Shown: positions 3,092 through 64,000 of the stretch, piece by piece
Numbering within the stretch: the first letter of the stretch is position 1
Layout of the letters: each line of letters opens with the position of its first letter
Assembly: GCA_001770655.1 (NCBI GenBank)
Contig: MERQ01000061.1
Location: 46,546-110,545 of the forward strand
Reading direction: 5' to 3'
DNA: 64,000 bases
Source: Betaproteobacteria bacterium RIFCSPLOWO2_12_FULL_68_20
GTDB lineage: Bacteria > Pseudomonadota > Gammaproteobacteria > Burkholderiales > SG8-39
Notes under the pieces: model-generated
The model's database searches: none
Told to the model about the DNA's origin: nothing
What the model saw: the letters and a program-made list of their open reading frames with translations, nothing else
Position numbers and translations under genes: made by a program

Positions 3092-3808
3092 ATGGAGGAG
3101 CAGGATCACGTCCTTGTCGTCGACGACGATTCCGAGCTGCGCGCTTTGCTCGCGGAGTACCTCGGAGCCAACGGGTATAGGGTCTCGGTCGCTACCGACG
3201 GACGCGAAATGCACAGGCTCCTGGAAAGCGACCGCCCGGACCTCGTGGTGCTGGACCTCATGCTCCCGGGCGACGACGGACTCGCGTTGTGCCGCGACCT
3301 GCGCGCCAACTCCAGCATTCCCGTGATCATGCTCTCGGCTCGTCGCGACGAGGTCGACCGCATCGTCGGCATCGAGATGGGAGCGGACGACTACCTCGGC
3401 AAGCCCTTCAGCCCGCGCGAGCTGCTGGCGCGGATCCGAGGCATCCTGCGCCGCACTCGTGCGCTCTCGCGCGAGCTTGTGGACGCGCACCGCGTGCGCT
3501 TCGCCGGCTGGACGCTCGACTTGACGGCGCGGCATCTTCTCGCGGCCGACGGAGTCGTGGTGTCCCTCAGCAGCGCGGAGTTCAGGCTGCTGTCGGTGTT
3601 CGTCGAGCATCCGAACCGCGTGCTCGATCGCGACCAGTTGATGGATCTCACGCTTGGGCGCGAGGCGACGCCGCTTGACCGCAGCATCGACGTGCAGGTG
3701 AGCCGGCTGCGCCAGCGGCTGCGGGACGACGCGCGCAACCCGCGCATCATCAAGACGGTGCGCAACGGCGGCTACGTGCTCGCCGCTGCCGTGGAGCGGG
3801 TTCCGTGA
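3092..3808 (+). CDS. OmpR-family response regulator
   Basis: Receiver (VVDDDSELRALL..DLMLPGDDG) plus winged-helix C-terminus; overlaps the downstream kinase. Confidence 0.92.
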   Translation: MEEQDHVLVVDDDSELRALLAEYLGANGYRVSVATDGREMHRLLESDRPDLVVLDLMLPGDDGLALCRDLRANSSIPVIMLSARRDEVDRIVGIEMGADDYLGKPFSPRELLARIRGILRRTRALSRELVDAHRVRFAGWTLDLTARHLLAADGVVVSLSSAEFRLLSVFVEHPNRVLDRDQLMDLTLGREATPLDRSIDVQVSRLRQRLRDDARNPRIIKTVRNGGYVLAAAVERVP

Positions 3809-6618: not shown

Positions 6619-7440
6619 ATGAGCCTCATGACGAAGCAGGACCACATCCTGGTGGTGGACGACGACGCCGAAACGCGCCAGCTGCTGCGCGAGTACTTCG
6701 AGAAGAACGGCTACCGCGTCTCGGCGGCGGCCGAGGGCAGGGCCATGCGCACCGCGATGAACGCCGCGCATCCCGACCTGGTCTTGCTCGACGTGATGCT
6801 GCCCGGCGAGGACGGGCTGAGCCTGTGCCGCGACCTGCGCGCCGGCGCCGGCGTGCCGGTCATCATGGTGACCGCGCGCGGCGAGGAAACCGACCGGATC
6901 GTCGGGCTCGAGCTCGGCGCCGACGACTACCTGTCCAAGCCGTTCAATCCGCGGGAGCTGCTGGCACGGGTGAAAAGCGTGCTCAGGCGCGCGCGCGCGC
7001 TGCCGGAAAACCTGCGGCCGGAGGCGGCGAGCGCGTTCCGCTTCGCCGGCTGGACGCTCGAGGTCGCCACGCGCAACCTGACGGCTCCCGACGGCGTGGT
7101 GGTGCCGCTGAGCGGCACCGATTTCAAGCTTTTGCGCGCGTTCCTCGGCCACCCCAATCTCGTGCTGACGCGCGAGCAGCTGCTGGACCTGATGCTCGCG
7201 CGCGACGCCGCGCCCTTCGACCGCGCGATCGACGTGCAGGTGAGCCGCCTGCGCCAGCGGCTGCGCGAGGACGCGAAAGAACCCCGCATCATCAAGACGG
7301 TGCGCGGCGAGGGCTACGTGCTCGCCGCGCGCGTCGAAGCTCTAGGAACGGATTCTCAAAGCAGCTCTTCGGGCGCCAACGCGCCGAGCAGCCGGGAAAG
7401 CATCCGCCGCCACCAGCCGGTGAGCGGTTCGTCTTCGTAG
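6619..7440 (+). CDS. OmpR-family response regulator, paralogue of the 3092 gene
   Basis: VVDDDAETRQLLREY...DVMLPGEDGLSLCRDLRAG; start at MSLMTKQDHI. Confidence 0.9.
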   Translation: MSLMTKQDHILVVDDDAETRQLLREYFEKNGYRVSAAAEGRAMRTAMNAAHPDLVLLDVMLPGEDGLSLCRDLRAGAGVPVIMVTARGEETDRIVGLELGADDYLSKPFNPRELLARVKSVLRRARALPENLRPEAASAFRFAGWTLEVATRNLTAPDGVVVPLSGTDFKLLRAFLGHPNLVLTREQLLDLMLARDAAPFDRAIDVQVSRLRQRLREDAKEPRIIKTVRGEGYVLAARVEALGTDSQSSSSGANAPSSRESIRRHQPVSGSSS

Positions 7441-14770: not shown

Positions 14771-16123
14771 TCACGTCGCCGCAGACGAAAAGCTTGCGCA
14801 TCCGGTGGTGCGGTCGACCGCCTCGGCAGCCGCGCGCAGCGCCGGCGCGATCTCGACCGGATAGGGGGCGAGCGCCGCCTCCAGGGACCTGAGCGGAGCC
14901 GGCAGCCGCTCGAGCTGCGCGAGCGCATGGGCGCGCGCCGAATCGAGCGCCGGCGAGGCGAGCCGCTTGCCGCGCTCGATCACGCGGGCGAGCAGCGGCT
15001 CGCCCGGCCGGGGATCGGACTCCAGCGTCACGACGTCGCCCGCGAACGTGCCGTCGGCGTGATAGCGGCGGTACACCTGCTTGCGCCCCGGCCAGGTCGC
15101 CTTGCCCGTCGAGCGCTTGCGGCGCGGCTGGCCGGCGTATTCCTCCAGCTTGTAGACCGCGTCGAGAAACGGGCAGTCCGCCGAGGTGACGAGGCTGGTG
15201 CCGATGCCGAAGCTGTCGATCGGCGCGCCCTCCGCGACCAATTTGGCGACCCGGTATTCGTCCAGGTTGCCGCTGGCGAAGATGATCGCGTCCTTCAGGC
15301 CTCCCGCGTCGAGAATCTTGCGCACCCGCCTCGACAGCGCACCGAGGTCGCCGCTGTCGAGCCTCACACCTTTCACCTGGACGCCCGACCTCGCCAGCTC
15401 CACCGCCTTGCGTGCGCCTGCGGCGGTGTCGTAGGTGTCGATGAGCAGCACCGCGCTCTCCGGGAACACCTCGGCGAAATGCTCGAACGCGGCGGCTTCG
15501 TCCTCGTGCGCCTGCACGAAGGAGTGCGCCATGGTGCCGAATACGGGAATGCCGAAGCGCGGCGCGGCGAGCACCGTCGAGGTGCCGGAGAACCCCGCGA
15601 GGTAGGCTGCGCGCGCGGCGAGCAGCCCCGCCTCCGCCCCGTGCGCGCGGCGCAGCCCGAAATCGATCAGGCGTTTTCCTTTCGCTGCGAGAACCGAGCG
15701 CGCCGCCTTGGAAGCCACCACGGTCTCGAAATGCACCAGGTTCAGCACCCGCGTCTCCAGCAGCTGCGCCTGCGGCATCGGCGCGCTCACGCGCAGCAGC
15801 GGCTCGTCGGGGAAGAACACTGTGCCCTCGGGCATCGCGTGCACGTCGCCGGTGAAGCGCAGGCCGGCAAGATGCTCGATGAAATCCGGGCGGAACAGGC
15901 CCGAGCGGGCGATCCAGTCGAGCTCTTCCTCGCCGAAGCGCAGCTGCGAGATGAAGTCGAGCGCCTGCTCCAGGCCCGCGGCGACGAGGAATTTGCGGCC
16001 CGGCGGCAGCTTGCGGACGAACAGCTCGAACACCGCGGTGTCGGTCATGCCGCGCGCGAAATACGCCTGCAGCATGGTGAGCTGGTACAGGTCGGTGAGG
16101 AGCGGGCTGGTGAGCGGGTTCAT
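14771..16123 (-). CDS. pncB: Nicotinate phosphoribosyltransferase
   Basis: LLTDLYQLTMLQAYF; LLIDTYDTAAGARKAVEL; GVRLDSGDL. Confidence 0.93.
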   Translation of the reverse strand: MNPLTSPLLTDLYQLTMLQAYFARGMTDTAVFELFVRKLPPGRKFLVAAGLEQALDFISQLRFGEEELDWIARSGLFRPDFIEHLAGLRFTGDVHAMPEGTVFFPDEPLLRVSAPMPQAQLLETRVLNLVHFETVVASKAARSVLAAKGKRLIDFGLRRAHGAEAGLLAARAAYLAGFSGTSTVLAAPRFGIPVFGTMAHSFVQAHEDEAAAFEHFAEVFPESAVLLIDTYDTAAGARKAVELARSGVQVKGVRLDSGDLGALSRRVRKILDAGGLKDAIIFASGNLDEYRVAKLVAEGAPIDSFGIGTSLVTSADCPFLDAVYKLEEYAGQPRRKRSTGKATWPGRKQVYRRYHADGTFAGDVVTLESDPRPGEPLLARVIERGKRLASPALDSARAHALAQLERLPAPLRSLEAALAPYPVEIAPALRAAAEAVDRTTGCASFSSAAT

Positions 16124-16150
16124 GGCGCGTTTGGCTGTTTGCTTTTCTAC

Positions 16151-16300
16151 GATCTCGCGACTTTCGGCCGCCTTTGCCGAAAGTCGCGAGACATTGGGGC
16201 GCTCGCGTCCACGCGAACGCCTTCGCTACTCGACGGCCTCAATGTTCTCGCCATTTCCGCAAAGGCAAAAGGCGCGGAAATGACGAGATCGGATAAAAAG
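16151..16300 (-). repeat. Structured dispersed repeat, copy A
   Basis: About 150 bp intergenic; 16-bp hairpin 16153-16168/16176-16191 and 15-bp hairpin 16246-16260/16274-16288; inverted homologous copy at 56585-56733. Confidence 0.88.
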
Positions 16301-16310
16301 CAAAAGCACT

Positions 16311-17624
16311 CTAATGCGCGTTGCCGTCGCTGCGCTGCCCGAGCATCTCGGGGTAGACGAGCGTGATCCCGCTCTCGGTGACGTGGAAGCGCTTGCGGTC
16401 CGCCTCCAGGTCGACGCCGATGCGCATCCCGGGCGCGATGCGGCAGTAATTGTCGATCACCGCGCGCCTGAGCACCGCGTGGTGGCCGATCTCGACTTTC
16501 GGCAGCACCACCGAGTCCTCGACCAGGCTGTAGTCGTTGACGCGCACGCTCGAGAACAGGAGCGAGCGCCGCACCGTGCAGCCGCTGAGCACGCAGCCGC
16601 CCGACACCAGCGAATCCACCGCCATGCCGCGGCGCTCGTCCTCGTCGAACACGAACTTCGCCGGCGGCAGCTGCTCCTGGTAGGTCCAGATCGGCCAGTC
16701 CTGGTCGTACAGGTTCAGCTCCGGCACCACGTGCGTGAGGTCCATGTTCGCCCTCCAGTACGCGTCGACGGTGCCGACGTCGCGCCAGTACGGCCGGTCG
16801 CCGACCATGTTCACGCAACTGCGCACGAAGTTGTGCGCGAATACGCGCGAGCCGGCCTGCAGCAGCCGCGGGATGACATCGCGGCCGAAGTCGTGGCTCG
16901 ATTGCGCGTCCCCGGCGTCGCGCCGCAGCGCCTCGTACAGGAAGTCCGCGTCGAAAAGGTAGATTCCCATGCTGGCGAGCGCCTTGCCGGGGTCGCCCGG
17001 GGCCGGCCGCGGCGCCGCGGGCTTCTCGTCGAAGGCGACCACGCGCCCCGCGTCGTCGGCCGCCATCACGCCGAAGGCGCTCGCGTCGGCCATCGGCACC
17101 TCGACGCAGGCCACGGTCGCCTCGGCTCCGCTCGCGACGTGGTCGCGCAGCAGCTCGCGGTAGTCCATCTTGTAGACGTGGTCCCCGCCGAGCACCAGCA
17201 CGAACCTCGGCCTGTGCTGGCGCAGCACGTCCAGGTTCTGGTACACCGCGTCGGCGGTGCCGAGGTACCAGGAGGAATTGATGCGCTGCTGCGCCGGCAG
17301 CAGCTCGATGAACTCGCGGATGCGGCCGTCGAGGAAGCTCCAGCCGCGCTGGATGTGCCGGATCAGGCTCTGCGACTTGTACTGCGTCGCCACCGCGATG
17401 CGCCGCACGCCGGAGTTGACGCAGTTCGACAGCGGAAAGTCGATGATGCGGAACTTGCCGCCGAACGGCACCGCGGGCTTGGCGCGCCAGTCGGTGAGCT
17501 CGTGCAGGCGCGCGCCGCGCCCGCCCGCCAGCACGATCGCGAAGGTCTGCCGGACGTTGTCCTGGATACGCGCCGGGTGCGCCGCGTGCTGCTGCTCGGT
17601 CCGGCCGCCGGCCACAGCCGTCAT
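16311..17624 (-). CDS. glgC: Glucose-1-phosphate adenylyltransferase
   Basis: AIVLAGGRGARLHELTDWRAKPAVPFGGKFRIIDFPLSNCVNSG. Confidence 0.96.
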   Translation of the reverse strand: MTAVAGGRTEQQHAAHPARIQDNVRQTFAIVLAGGRGARLHELTDWRAKPAVPFGGKFRIIDFPLSNCVNSGVRRIAVATQYKSQSLIRHIQRGWSFLDGRIREFIELLPAQQRINSSWYLGTADAVYQNLDVLRQHRPRFVLVLGGDHVYKMDYRELLRDHVASGAEATVACVEVPMADASAFGVMAADDAGRVVAFDEKPAAPRPAPGDPGKALASMGIYLFDADFLYEALRRDAGDAQSSHDFGRDVIPRLLQAGSRVFAHNFVRSCVNMVGDRPYWRDVGTVDAYWRANMDLTHVVPELNLYDQDWPIWTYQEQLPPAKFVFDEDERRGMAVDSLVSGGCVLSGCTVRRSLLFSSVRVNDYSLVEDSVVLPKVEIGHHAVLRRAVIDNYCRIAPGMRIGVDLEADRKRFHVTESGITLVYPEMLGQRSDGNAH

Positions 17625-55728: not shown

Positions 55729-56559
55729 ATGTCCGTCGCCATCCCGCTCCGTTTCCTCACGGCGCTCGCCGCCGCCTTCCTCATCGCGGCCCCCGCGGCG
55801 GCGCAGAAATTCGAGCCGCAGGTCGGCCAGGCGGGCAAGGACGTGATCTGGGTGCCGACGCCCGACGACATCGTCGACCGCATGCTCACGATGGCGCAGG
55901 TGACGGCGAACGATTTCGTCGTCGACCTGGGCTCGGGCGACGGCAAGATCGCGATCGCGGCGGCGCAAAAGTTCGGCGCGCGCGCGCTCGGCATCGAGTA
56001 CAACCCCGACATGGTGAAGCTCTCGCAGGCGAACGCCCAGGCCGCCGGGGTCGCCGGCAAGGCCACGTTCCGGCACGCCGATATCTTCGCCACCGATTTC
56101 ACCCAGGCGACAGTGATCACCATGTACCTGCTGCCCGGCCTCAACATGAAGCTGCGGCCGCAGATCCTCGCCATGCGGCCGGGCACGCGCGTGGCGTCGC
56201 ACTCGTTCAGCATGGAGGACTGGGAGGCCGACGAGACCTCGACGCTCGACGGCCGGCGCGCGTATTTCTGGGTGGTGCCGGCGAACGTGTCCGGCGGCTG
56301 GACGCTGGAAGTCGGCGCGCAGCGCATCGAGCTCTCGTTCGACCAGACGTTCCAGAAGATCAACGGCACCGTGACCCTCGGCCCGCTGCAGGCGGGCCTG
56401 CGCGAGGCGAAGCTGCGCGGCTTCAACATCAGCTTCGCGTTCGTCGACAGCGCCCAGGTGCGCCGCGAGTTCACCGGGCGCGTAATCGGAGCGAAGATGG
56501 AAGGCTCGTGGCGCGGCGACGGCGGCACCGAAGGCCGCTGGAGCGCGACGAAGAAATAA
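55729..56559 (+). CDS. SAM-dependent methyltransferase-fold protein with N-terminal signal peptide
   Basis: MSVAIPLRFLTALAAAFLIAAPAAAQ then VVDLGSGDGKIAIAAAQKFGARALGIEYNPDMV. Confidence 0.85.
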   Translation: MSVAIPLRFLTALAAAFLIAAPAAAQKFEPQVGQAGKDVIWVPTPDDIVDRMLTMAQVTANDFVVDLGSGDGKIAIAAAQKFGARALGIEYNPDMVKLSQANAQAAGVAGKATFRHADIFATDFTQATVITMYLLPGLNMKLRPQILAMRPGTRVASHSFSMEDWEADETSTLDGRRAYFWVVPANVSGGWTLEVGAQRIELSFDQTFQKINGTVTLGPLQAGLREAKLRGFNISFAFVDSAQVRREFTGRVIGAKMEGSWRGDGGTEGRWSATKK

Positions 56560-56584
56560 GCGGTTTGGTCTTTCGGTTTCCGGT

Positions 56585-56733
56585 TTTTATCCGATCTCGT
56601 CATTTCCGCGCTTCTTGTTTTTGCGGAAATGACGAGACCCTGGGGCCGGCGCATAGCAAAGGCGTTCGCGAAGAGCGAGCGCCCCAATGTCTCGCGATTT
56701 CCGGCAGAAGCGGCCGGAAACCGCGAGATCGAT
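56585..56733 (+). repeat. Structured dispersed repeat, copy B
   Basis: Reverse complement aligns along its length with 16151-16300; hairpins 56595-56609/56623-56637 and 56690-56705/56713-56728. Confidence 0.88.
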
Positions 56734-56749
56734 GAAAATCCAAAAAGAA

Positions 56750-56989
56750 CTAAGCCAGCTTCTTATGCGTGCCGTCGCAGAACGGCTTGTTGCCGGTGCG
56801 CTTGCACCCGCACAGCCAGACTTTCTGCGCCTCGGTGACGGTGAACTTGACCGGCGTGAACTCGGTCGTCTTGTGCGAGCCGTCGCAGAACGGCTGGCGC
56901 TTCGACTGCCCGCACTGGCACCACCAGTAGTCGCCGGGAGCGAGCTCCACCGCGTACGGCCCCTTCTGCGCGATCATCGGCTCGGCCAT
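56750..56989 (-). CDS. CDGSH iron-sulfur domain protein
   Basis: WCQCGQSKRQPFCDGSHKTTEF and WLCGCKRTGNKPFCDGTHKKL. Confidence 0.93.
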   Translation of the reverse strand: MAEPMIAQKGPYAVELAPGDYWWCQCGQSKRQPFCDGSHKTTEFTPVKFTVTEAQKVWLCGCKRTGNKPFCDGTHKKLA

Positions 56990-63924: not shown

Positions 63925-64000
63925 GCCGAGGTGGCGGAATTGGTAGACGCACATGGTTCAGGTCCATGCGGTGGCAACACTGTGGGGGTTCGAGTCCCTT
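63925..64000 (+). tRNA. tRNA-Leu(CAG), truncated by the window edge
   Basis: GCCGAGGTGGCGGAATTGGTAGACGC; anticodon arm CATGG-TTCAGGT-CCATG; GGGGGTTCGAGTCCC T-arm. Confidence 0.95.

Follow-up and report, generated by a model that had tools for sequence, protein, structure and literature searches.

A family of double-hairpin palindromic repeats, probably mobile and mostly at gene 3' ends, in uncultured betaproteobacteria

We identified a family of small repeats, each composed of two hairpins, that includes both of the structured intergenic elements (copies A and B) in the analysed stretch of DNA (the window; 64,000 nucleotides). We consider it likely (probability roughly 0.8) that the family to which copies A and B belong is mobile and non-autonomous, made up of palindromic repeats that resemble REPINs and MITEs. 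The repeats are dispersed, one site is precisely filled in one genome and empty in others, and pairing in the stems has been kept far above chance. The family occurs in one group of uncultured betaproteobacteria, where it inserts for the most part at gene 3' ends. We class the double-hairpin repeat as a new family among the miniature palindromic mobile repeats, a known kind, and place it outside the named families. Although its stems have kept near-perfect pairing during evolution, we do not take it for a conserved RNA gene. It adds to the uncultured betaproteobacteria a miniature palindromic family that is absent from, and so new to, Rfam and the open-licence papers that we searched, and no match to the element was found in a plasmid collection.

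Copies A and B have a common three-arm structure of about 155 bp, with genuine two-sided changes in the stems (Table 1). In a scan for inverted repeats, the pair accounted for the two longest in the window (69 nt at 84% and 54 nt at 91%), and the fold of each copy was far better than those of shuffled sequences (z = -7.4 for each; 0 of 200 shuffles as good). A first-pass annotation, made from the letters of the window, had described two structured copies. Both are real, and their matches to a covariance model (R1, built from 13 full copies in the same genome) are slightly wider than it had proposed. Stem 1 is TCTCGCGACTTTCGGC-CGCCTTT-GCCGAAAGTCGCGAGA in copy A and TCTCGCGGTTTCCGGC-CGCTTCT-GCCGGAAATCGCGAGA in copy B, and the three differences noted there (C-G to T-A, T-A to C-G and A-T to G.T) were borne out by direct reading of the sequence. 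The second hairpin of 15 bp is present, with one C.A mismatch in copy A. The paired centre that had been called conserved (CATTGGGGC/GCCTCAATG) is intact in copy A but altered in copy B (CATTGGGGC/GCCCCAGGG); support for the central arm of copy A is weaker than for its hairpins, with changes that are mostly one-sided or columns that are invariant. Hairpin 2 of copy A is a unit of the same type as hairpin 1, inverted (match to the unit model R2 on the minus strand at 16235-16299, 62.6 bits). The reverse strand of copy A also matches R1 (95.3 bits), as expected of an inverted pair. Elsewhere in the window, positions 3236-3795 and 6772-7337 form a direct repeat, 3.5 kb apart, with 73-75% identity.

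Table 1. Positions of copies A and B, their parts and the flanking genes in the window.
Feature	Position	Strand	Basis and remarks
Copy A, whole element	16142..16299	+	Match to covariance model R1, 167.6 bits
Copy A, outer inverted repeat, left (CGATCTC)	16150..16156	+	Can pair with 16285-16291; invariant in 13 of 13 full copies
Copy A, hairpin 1	16153..16191	+	Arms 16153-16168 and 16176-16191, loop 16169-16175; sequence, fold and covariation
Copy A, central arm	16192..16244	+	CATTGGGGC (16192-16200) paired with GCCTCAATG (16236-16244); fold
Copy A, hairpin 2	16246..16288	+	Arms 16246-16260 and 16274-16288, loop 16261-16273
Copy A, outer inverted repeat, right (GAGATCG)	16285..16291	+	Can pair with 16150-16156
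Copy B, whole element	56584..56739	-	R1 match, 170.5 bits
Copy B, hairpin 1	56690..56728	-	Sequence and fold; R2 unit match 56680-56739, 73.5 bits
Copy B, hairpin 2	56595..56637	-	Sequence; R2 unit match 56584-56647, 74.1 bits
Nicotinate phosphoribosyltransferase gene	14771..16123	-	Pfam PF17767, PF04095; start 18 nt from copy A
glgC-like nucleotidyltransferase gene	16311..17624	-	Pfam PF00483, PF24894; stop 11 nt from copy A
Methyltransferase-like gene	55729..56559	+	Pfam PF13649; converges on copy B, stop 24 nt away
CDGSH iron-sulfur protein gene	56750..56989	-	Pfam PF09360; converges on copy B, stop 10 nt away

The element had been described as present in two copies, which holds inside the window only: in the genome as a whole (3.48 Mb in 109 contigs) there are 13 or more full copies, together with others that are truncated or divergent. 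The other 12 full copies are 75-86% identical to copy A. Truncated copies lie on contig C46 and at C82:16295, and another, at C1:34416, consists of half a hairpin. One full copy, on C103, is divergent and has the repeated junction motif TCGC/GCGA instead of TCTC/GAGA. The search of this genome and its relatives that the first-pass annotation had proposed thus turned up many further copies; among 100 genomes of the same GTDB family, R1 matched 17, which belong to 8 of the 26 genera, and the stem sequences of the relatives' elements are genome-specific. None of 387 sampled genomes from the other families of the order matched R1 in a search that scored few candidates per genome and could miss weak copies. 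When the whole order was scanned with a model of one unit, a single weak match fell outside the family (genome G287, E = 4e-7). Named genomes with matches in a DNA pattern scan were Betaproteobacteria MAGs, for example RIFCSPLOWO2_02_FULL_66_14 and FW602 bins; two matches from that scan (L168 and L174) have imperfect arms and were set aside as likely chance.

The consensus fold (RNAalifold) is a multi-arm junction made of an outer stem (CGATCTC/GAGATCG), hairpin 1, the central arm and hairpin 2. Both hairpins are one kind of unit of about 60 nt (YTTTTCAT-CGATCTCG-stem-pyrimidine-rich loop-stem-CGAGACATTGGGGCG), inverted, and the units match in opposite orientation at the two ends of the element. 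Each element consists of two such units, inverted around a short self-pairing spacer, with terminal inverted repeats (consensus about GGTTTTGCTTTTCATCGATCTCG). In three genomes (G026, G001 and G065), units are also found singly or as direct pairs, some with a loop of the GATTCAT type. Eight copies of the element lie head to tail with a period of 170 bp between an MFP adaptor gene and an RND efflux gene in G001 (L086; C203:4106-5446). A related repeat of about 100 bp, with a single hairpin and a GATTCAT-type loop, occurs singly or in direct tandem in the same three genomes (L145-L152, L155-L157, L159 and L160), often with flanks like GGTTTTGA...TCAAAACC.

The clearest record of movement comes from the subfamily in G026, where about 17-20 copies carry extra ends, CTAGCGTGCTGAGTCC on one side and its inverted counterpart on the other, about 233 bp apart. 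One of the elements in this genome (L067) splits a pair of genes that we read from their sequences as rsmB and a TerC-like gene, in the arrangement CTAG-[226 nt between the stops]-CTAG. In three congeners (G063, G064 and G065) the same two genes have no element and converge with a 4-nt overlap that is a single CTAG; in another genome (G094) they overlap at TTAG, again with no element. It is at this one site, in the G026 subfamily, that a target-site duplication and a comparison of filled and empty sites were obtained. At several other G026 copies the terminal TAG ends both of the flanking reading frames. CTAG is the sequence formed when convergent TAG stops overlap by four bases, so an insertion that duplicates these 4 bp leaves each gene with its own stop. 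We propose that a putative transposase supplied in trans inserts the element, and that its target, in this best-resolved subfamily, would be CTAG, duplicated on insertion. Insertion at overlapping convergent TAG stops would then keep both genes intact and put the element exactly at two 3' ends, and the rsmB site is a clean natural case of insertion at overlapping stop codons, empty sites included. In the subfamily of the window's own genome, no target duplication was resolved and the CTAG outer ends are lacking.

The sites of copies A and B were compared with those in relatives. The CDGSH and methyltransferase genes that flank copy B are 190 nt apart in its own genome. Seventeen relatives have the pair in convergent orientation, separated by -11 to 125 nt, and none of the 17 has a match to the unit. 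Because the site lacks the element in every relative that keeps the pair, copy B is, on this comparison of sequences, most simply a lineage-specific insertion. In other relatives (loci L210, L214 and L216) the same gap holds unrelated near-perfect palindromes of the type GGGTCAGAC...GTCTGACCC, as though palindromic repeats tended to gather between these convergent genes. The gene order at copy A, pncB beside glgC, was not detected in the loci of 29 relatives.

Among the identities that had been suggested for the element, a REP- or MITE-like unit is the one that agrees with what we found: copies that are dispersed, non-coding and bounded by terminal inverted repeats, truncated copies, a tandem array of eight, and sites filled in one genome and empty in others. 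The suggestion of an sRNA fared badly. The element has no Rfam match at gathering thresholds, and so no catalogued identity there; the site of copy B is empty in relatives that keep the gene pair; and a search around copy A found nothing that resembles a promoter or a terminator. At the gathering score, the only part of the window to reach threshold was a partial tRNA gene cut by the window's end (63925-64000, plus strand; RF00005, 31.8 bits), and a permissive scan of copy A gave a sub-threshold plant miRNA as its sole match.

Nine of the 13 copies in the window's genome lie between convergent genes, compared with 5 of 65 neighbouring gene pairs in the window as defined by our own simple gene calling. 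The distance from these copies to both stops is usually 8-28 nt. Such placement would follow from a CTAG-like target together with selection against disruption of genes. The gap between the MFP adaptor and RND efflux genes can be read in two ways. Of 23 close orthologous pairs, 7 hold the element, and these come from seven genomes in four genera; the remaining 16 lack it and have gaps of 0-67 nt. (At three of these loci, L086, L092 and L103, a reading frame that is open by chance extends into the element, and model matches were used to position it.) Its patchy presence within genera suggests, from sequence comparison, repeated insertion; that the same gap is used in four genera could instead reflect retention for a function.

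A rival reading is a conserved cis-acting RNA at mRNA 3' ends or in intercistronic gaps, acting in 3'-end protection, as an RNase III site or in ribosome stalling by the stop, and kept by selection on the host genes. Most copies in the window's genome begin within 8-28 nt of stop codons, the stems in the seven occupied MFP-RND gaps differ but remain paired, and the fold of the element is very stable. In addition, REPs no more than 15 nt from a stop codon were reported to lower translation (PMC12306157), and ERIC and NEMIS elements to act on mRNA stability (PMC2229807). However, the same gene pairs are without the element in most genomes, and presence is patchy inside genera g3 and g8. G.U pairs are scarce in the stems (17 of 1266 pairs), no intrinsic terminator was seen around copy A, and in the sequence of copy A the T-rich tracts come before the hairpins on each strand, not after them. 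It therefore seems improbable that selection on host genes for a cis-acting RNA accounts for the family. As mobile repeats, the hairpins beside stop codons may nonetheless, by analogy with REP, ERIC and NEMIS, alter the stability of mRNA 3' ends or translation when transcribed, so that transcripts carrying them may be stabilised, processed or less translated.

Pairing in the stems has been kept through extensive sequence change. In an alignment of 56 units, 98.4% of cells pair and two-sided changes occur at 13 of 16 stem pairs. There were 192 two-sided cells; shuffles gave 63.8 and slid controls 10-27, and 0 of 500 shuffles reached as high a count. The 77 distinct hairpins contain 1266 pairs, made up of 1235 Watson-Crick, 17 G.T, 6 A.C and 8 other pairs. 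We kept a strand test of G.U against A.C pairs (17 versus 6, in unit sense) out of the argument because the numbers are too few and the stems related. Pairs that are nearly all Watson-Crick point to a DNA palindrome or to both strands, and not to one RNA. The pairing means that the stems are maintained over time by a strand-symmetric rule: as a DNA palindrome, as RNA from both strands, or by template switching from arm to arm. The first-pass annotation had taken the covariation to indicate selection on structure and not recent copying. The covariation is indeed strong, but the family is mobile, the changes are almost purely Watson-Crick and many are swaps between C-G and G-C. Covariation by itself does not prove an RNA function, and upkeep of a palindrome at the DNA level, template switching included, explains the stems at least as well as selection on RNA does.

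Within the mobile-repeat reading, the two-sided changes might even be unselected: in a mobile repeat that is otherwise neutral, template switching from one arm of the DNA palindrome to the other would look like covariation. Copying of mutations between hairpin arms by this route is a published mechanism (PMC8794818). When stems of the same genome with one or two differing pairs were compared, outside G026 and G001, we counted 133 two-sided and 17 one-sided differences; like the other covariation counts, these come from related sequences and do not represent independent events. Swaps of C-G and G-C, which cannot pass through a wobble pair, are common, and some columns make this switch with no unpaired intermediate. 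The direction of the loop also differs between two orthologous copies (L092 and L105). On the other hand, in the recently amplified sets of G026 and G001 one-sided differences are as common as two-sided ones (33 versus 25, by subtraction), indicating that correction is not immediate, and loop polarity is conserved overall, at about 80% pyrimidine (unit sense) in both hairpins. Taking these together, we hold template switching as a tentative explanation, at somewhat less than even odds. In either case, the stems show how strong two-sided change can originate in mobile palindromes, and caution against taking covariation as proof of a functional RNA.

As part of the mobile-repeat reading, the fold would be needed for mobility. 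In a more far-reaching version, spread would depend on a folded form in which two long, near-perfect DNA hairpins share a junction bearing a four-fold TCTCG/CGAGA motif, and on an enzyme other than the Y1 transposases of known hairpin repeats, which would aim the element at CTAG, where overlapping convergent stops would allow insertion between two genes without harm to either. We think this version as a whole rather unlikely; if true, selection on pairing at the level of the element would account for the covariation. A search for the mobilising enzyme found no transposase with matching ends, and the CTAG ends in G026 bounded only elements of about 233 bp. No autonomous long copy was found in G026: the one unpaired end that was examined belonged to a copy that an assembly gap had truncated. 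IS elements are frequently missing from draft genomes.

A classical REP or REPIN moved by a RAYT (Y1) transposase would account for much of the architecture. The element is an inverted doublet of hairpin units with a pairing spacer that shows compensatory changes, extragenic and sometimes in tandem clusters, as are REPINs (PMC3116915), and Y1 transposase genes are present in the window's genome and in 64 others of the family. However, G026, the genome richest in copies, has no Y1_Tnp match (the genome is 86% complete), and R1 finds nothing at the RAYT locus of the window's genome (L136). In the 56-unit alignment, neither GTAG nor CGTC stands unpaired at the foot of the hairpin among the conserved columns; the feet read CGA-TCTCG and CGAGA-CATTGG. 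The stems, at 13-24 bp in the 77 distinct hairpins and mostly 13-17 bp, are longer than those of GTAG REPs, for which 5-13 bp is reported. We rejected RAYTs as the mobiliser, given that Y1 transposases do not track the element across genomes and that no linkage was found among the Y1 loci, which were partly examined; a classical RAYT-driven REP is thus very improbable.

The mobile repeats described here combine features of several known systems. Besides the architecture just described, they share with the REPINs of Pseudomonas a dispersed distribution, but they differ in having neither a GTAG-type tag nor a linked RAYT that we could find, in stem length, in numbering tens instead of hundreds of copies, and in their size of about 155-230 bp. 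Like the BIMEs, the enterobacterial mosaics of alternating REPs, they have alternating hairpin units, form tandem arrays and lie at gene 3' ends, but no common sequence or tag was seen and the lengths of units and spacers are unlike. With the Correia/NEMIS elements of Neisseria and the MITEs ERIC and RUP (PMC2229807) they have in common a small size, lack of coding sequence, terminal inverted repeats, a position near genes, an expected transcript that is strongly base-paired and, in one subfamily, a short target duplication. The terminal sequence of Correia/NEMIS is different from the consensus ends found here, and its target is TA, whereas the target in the G026 subfamily is the 4-bp CTAG/YTAG. 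Unlike Correia/NEMIS, ERIC and RUP, the element described here is built of two separate hairpins and a central arm.
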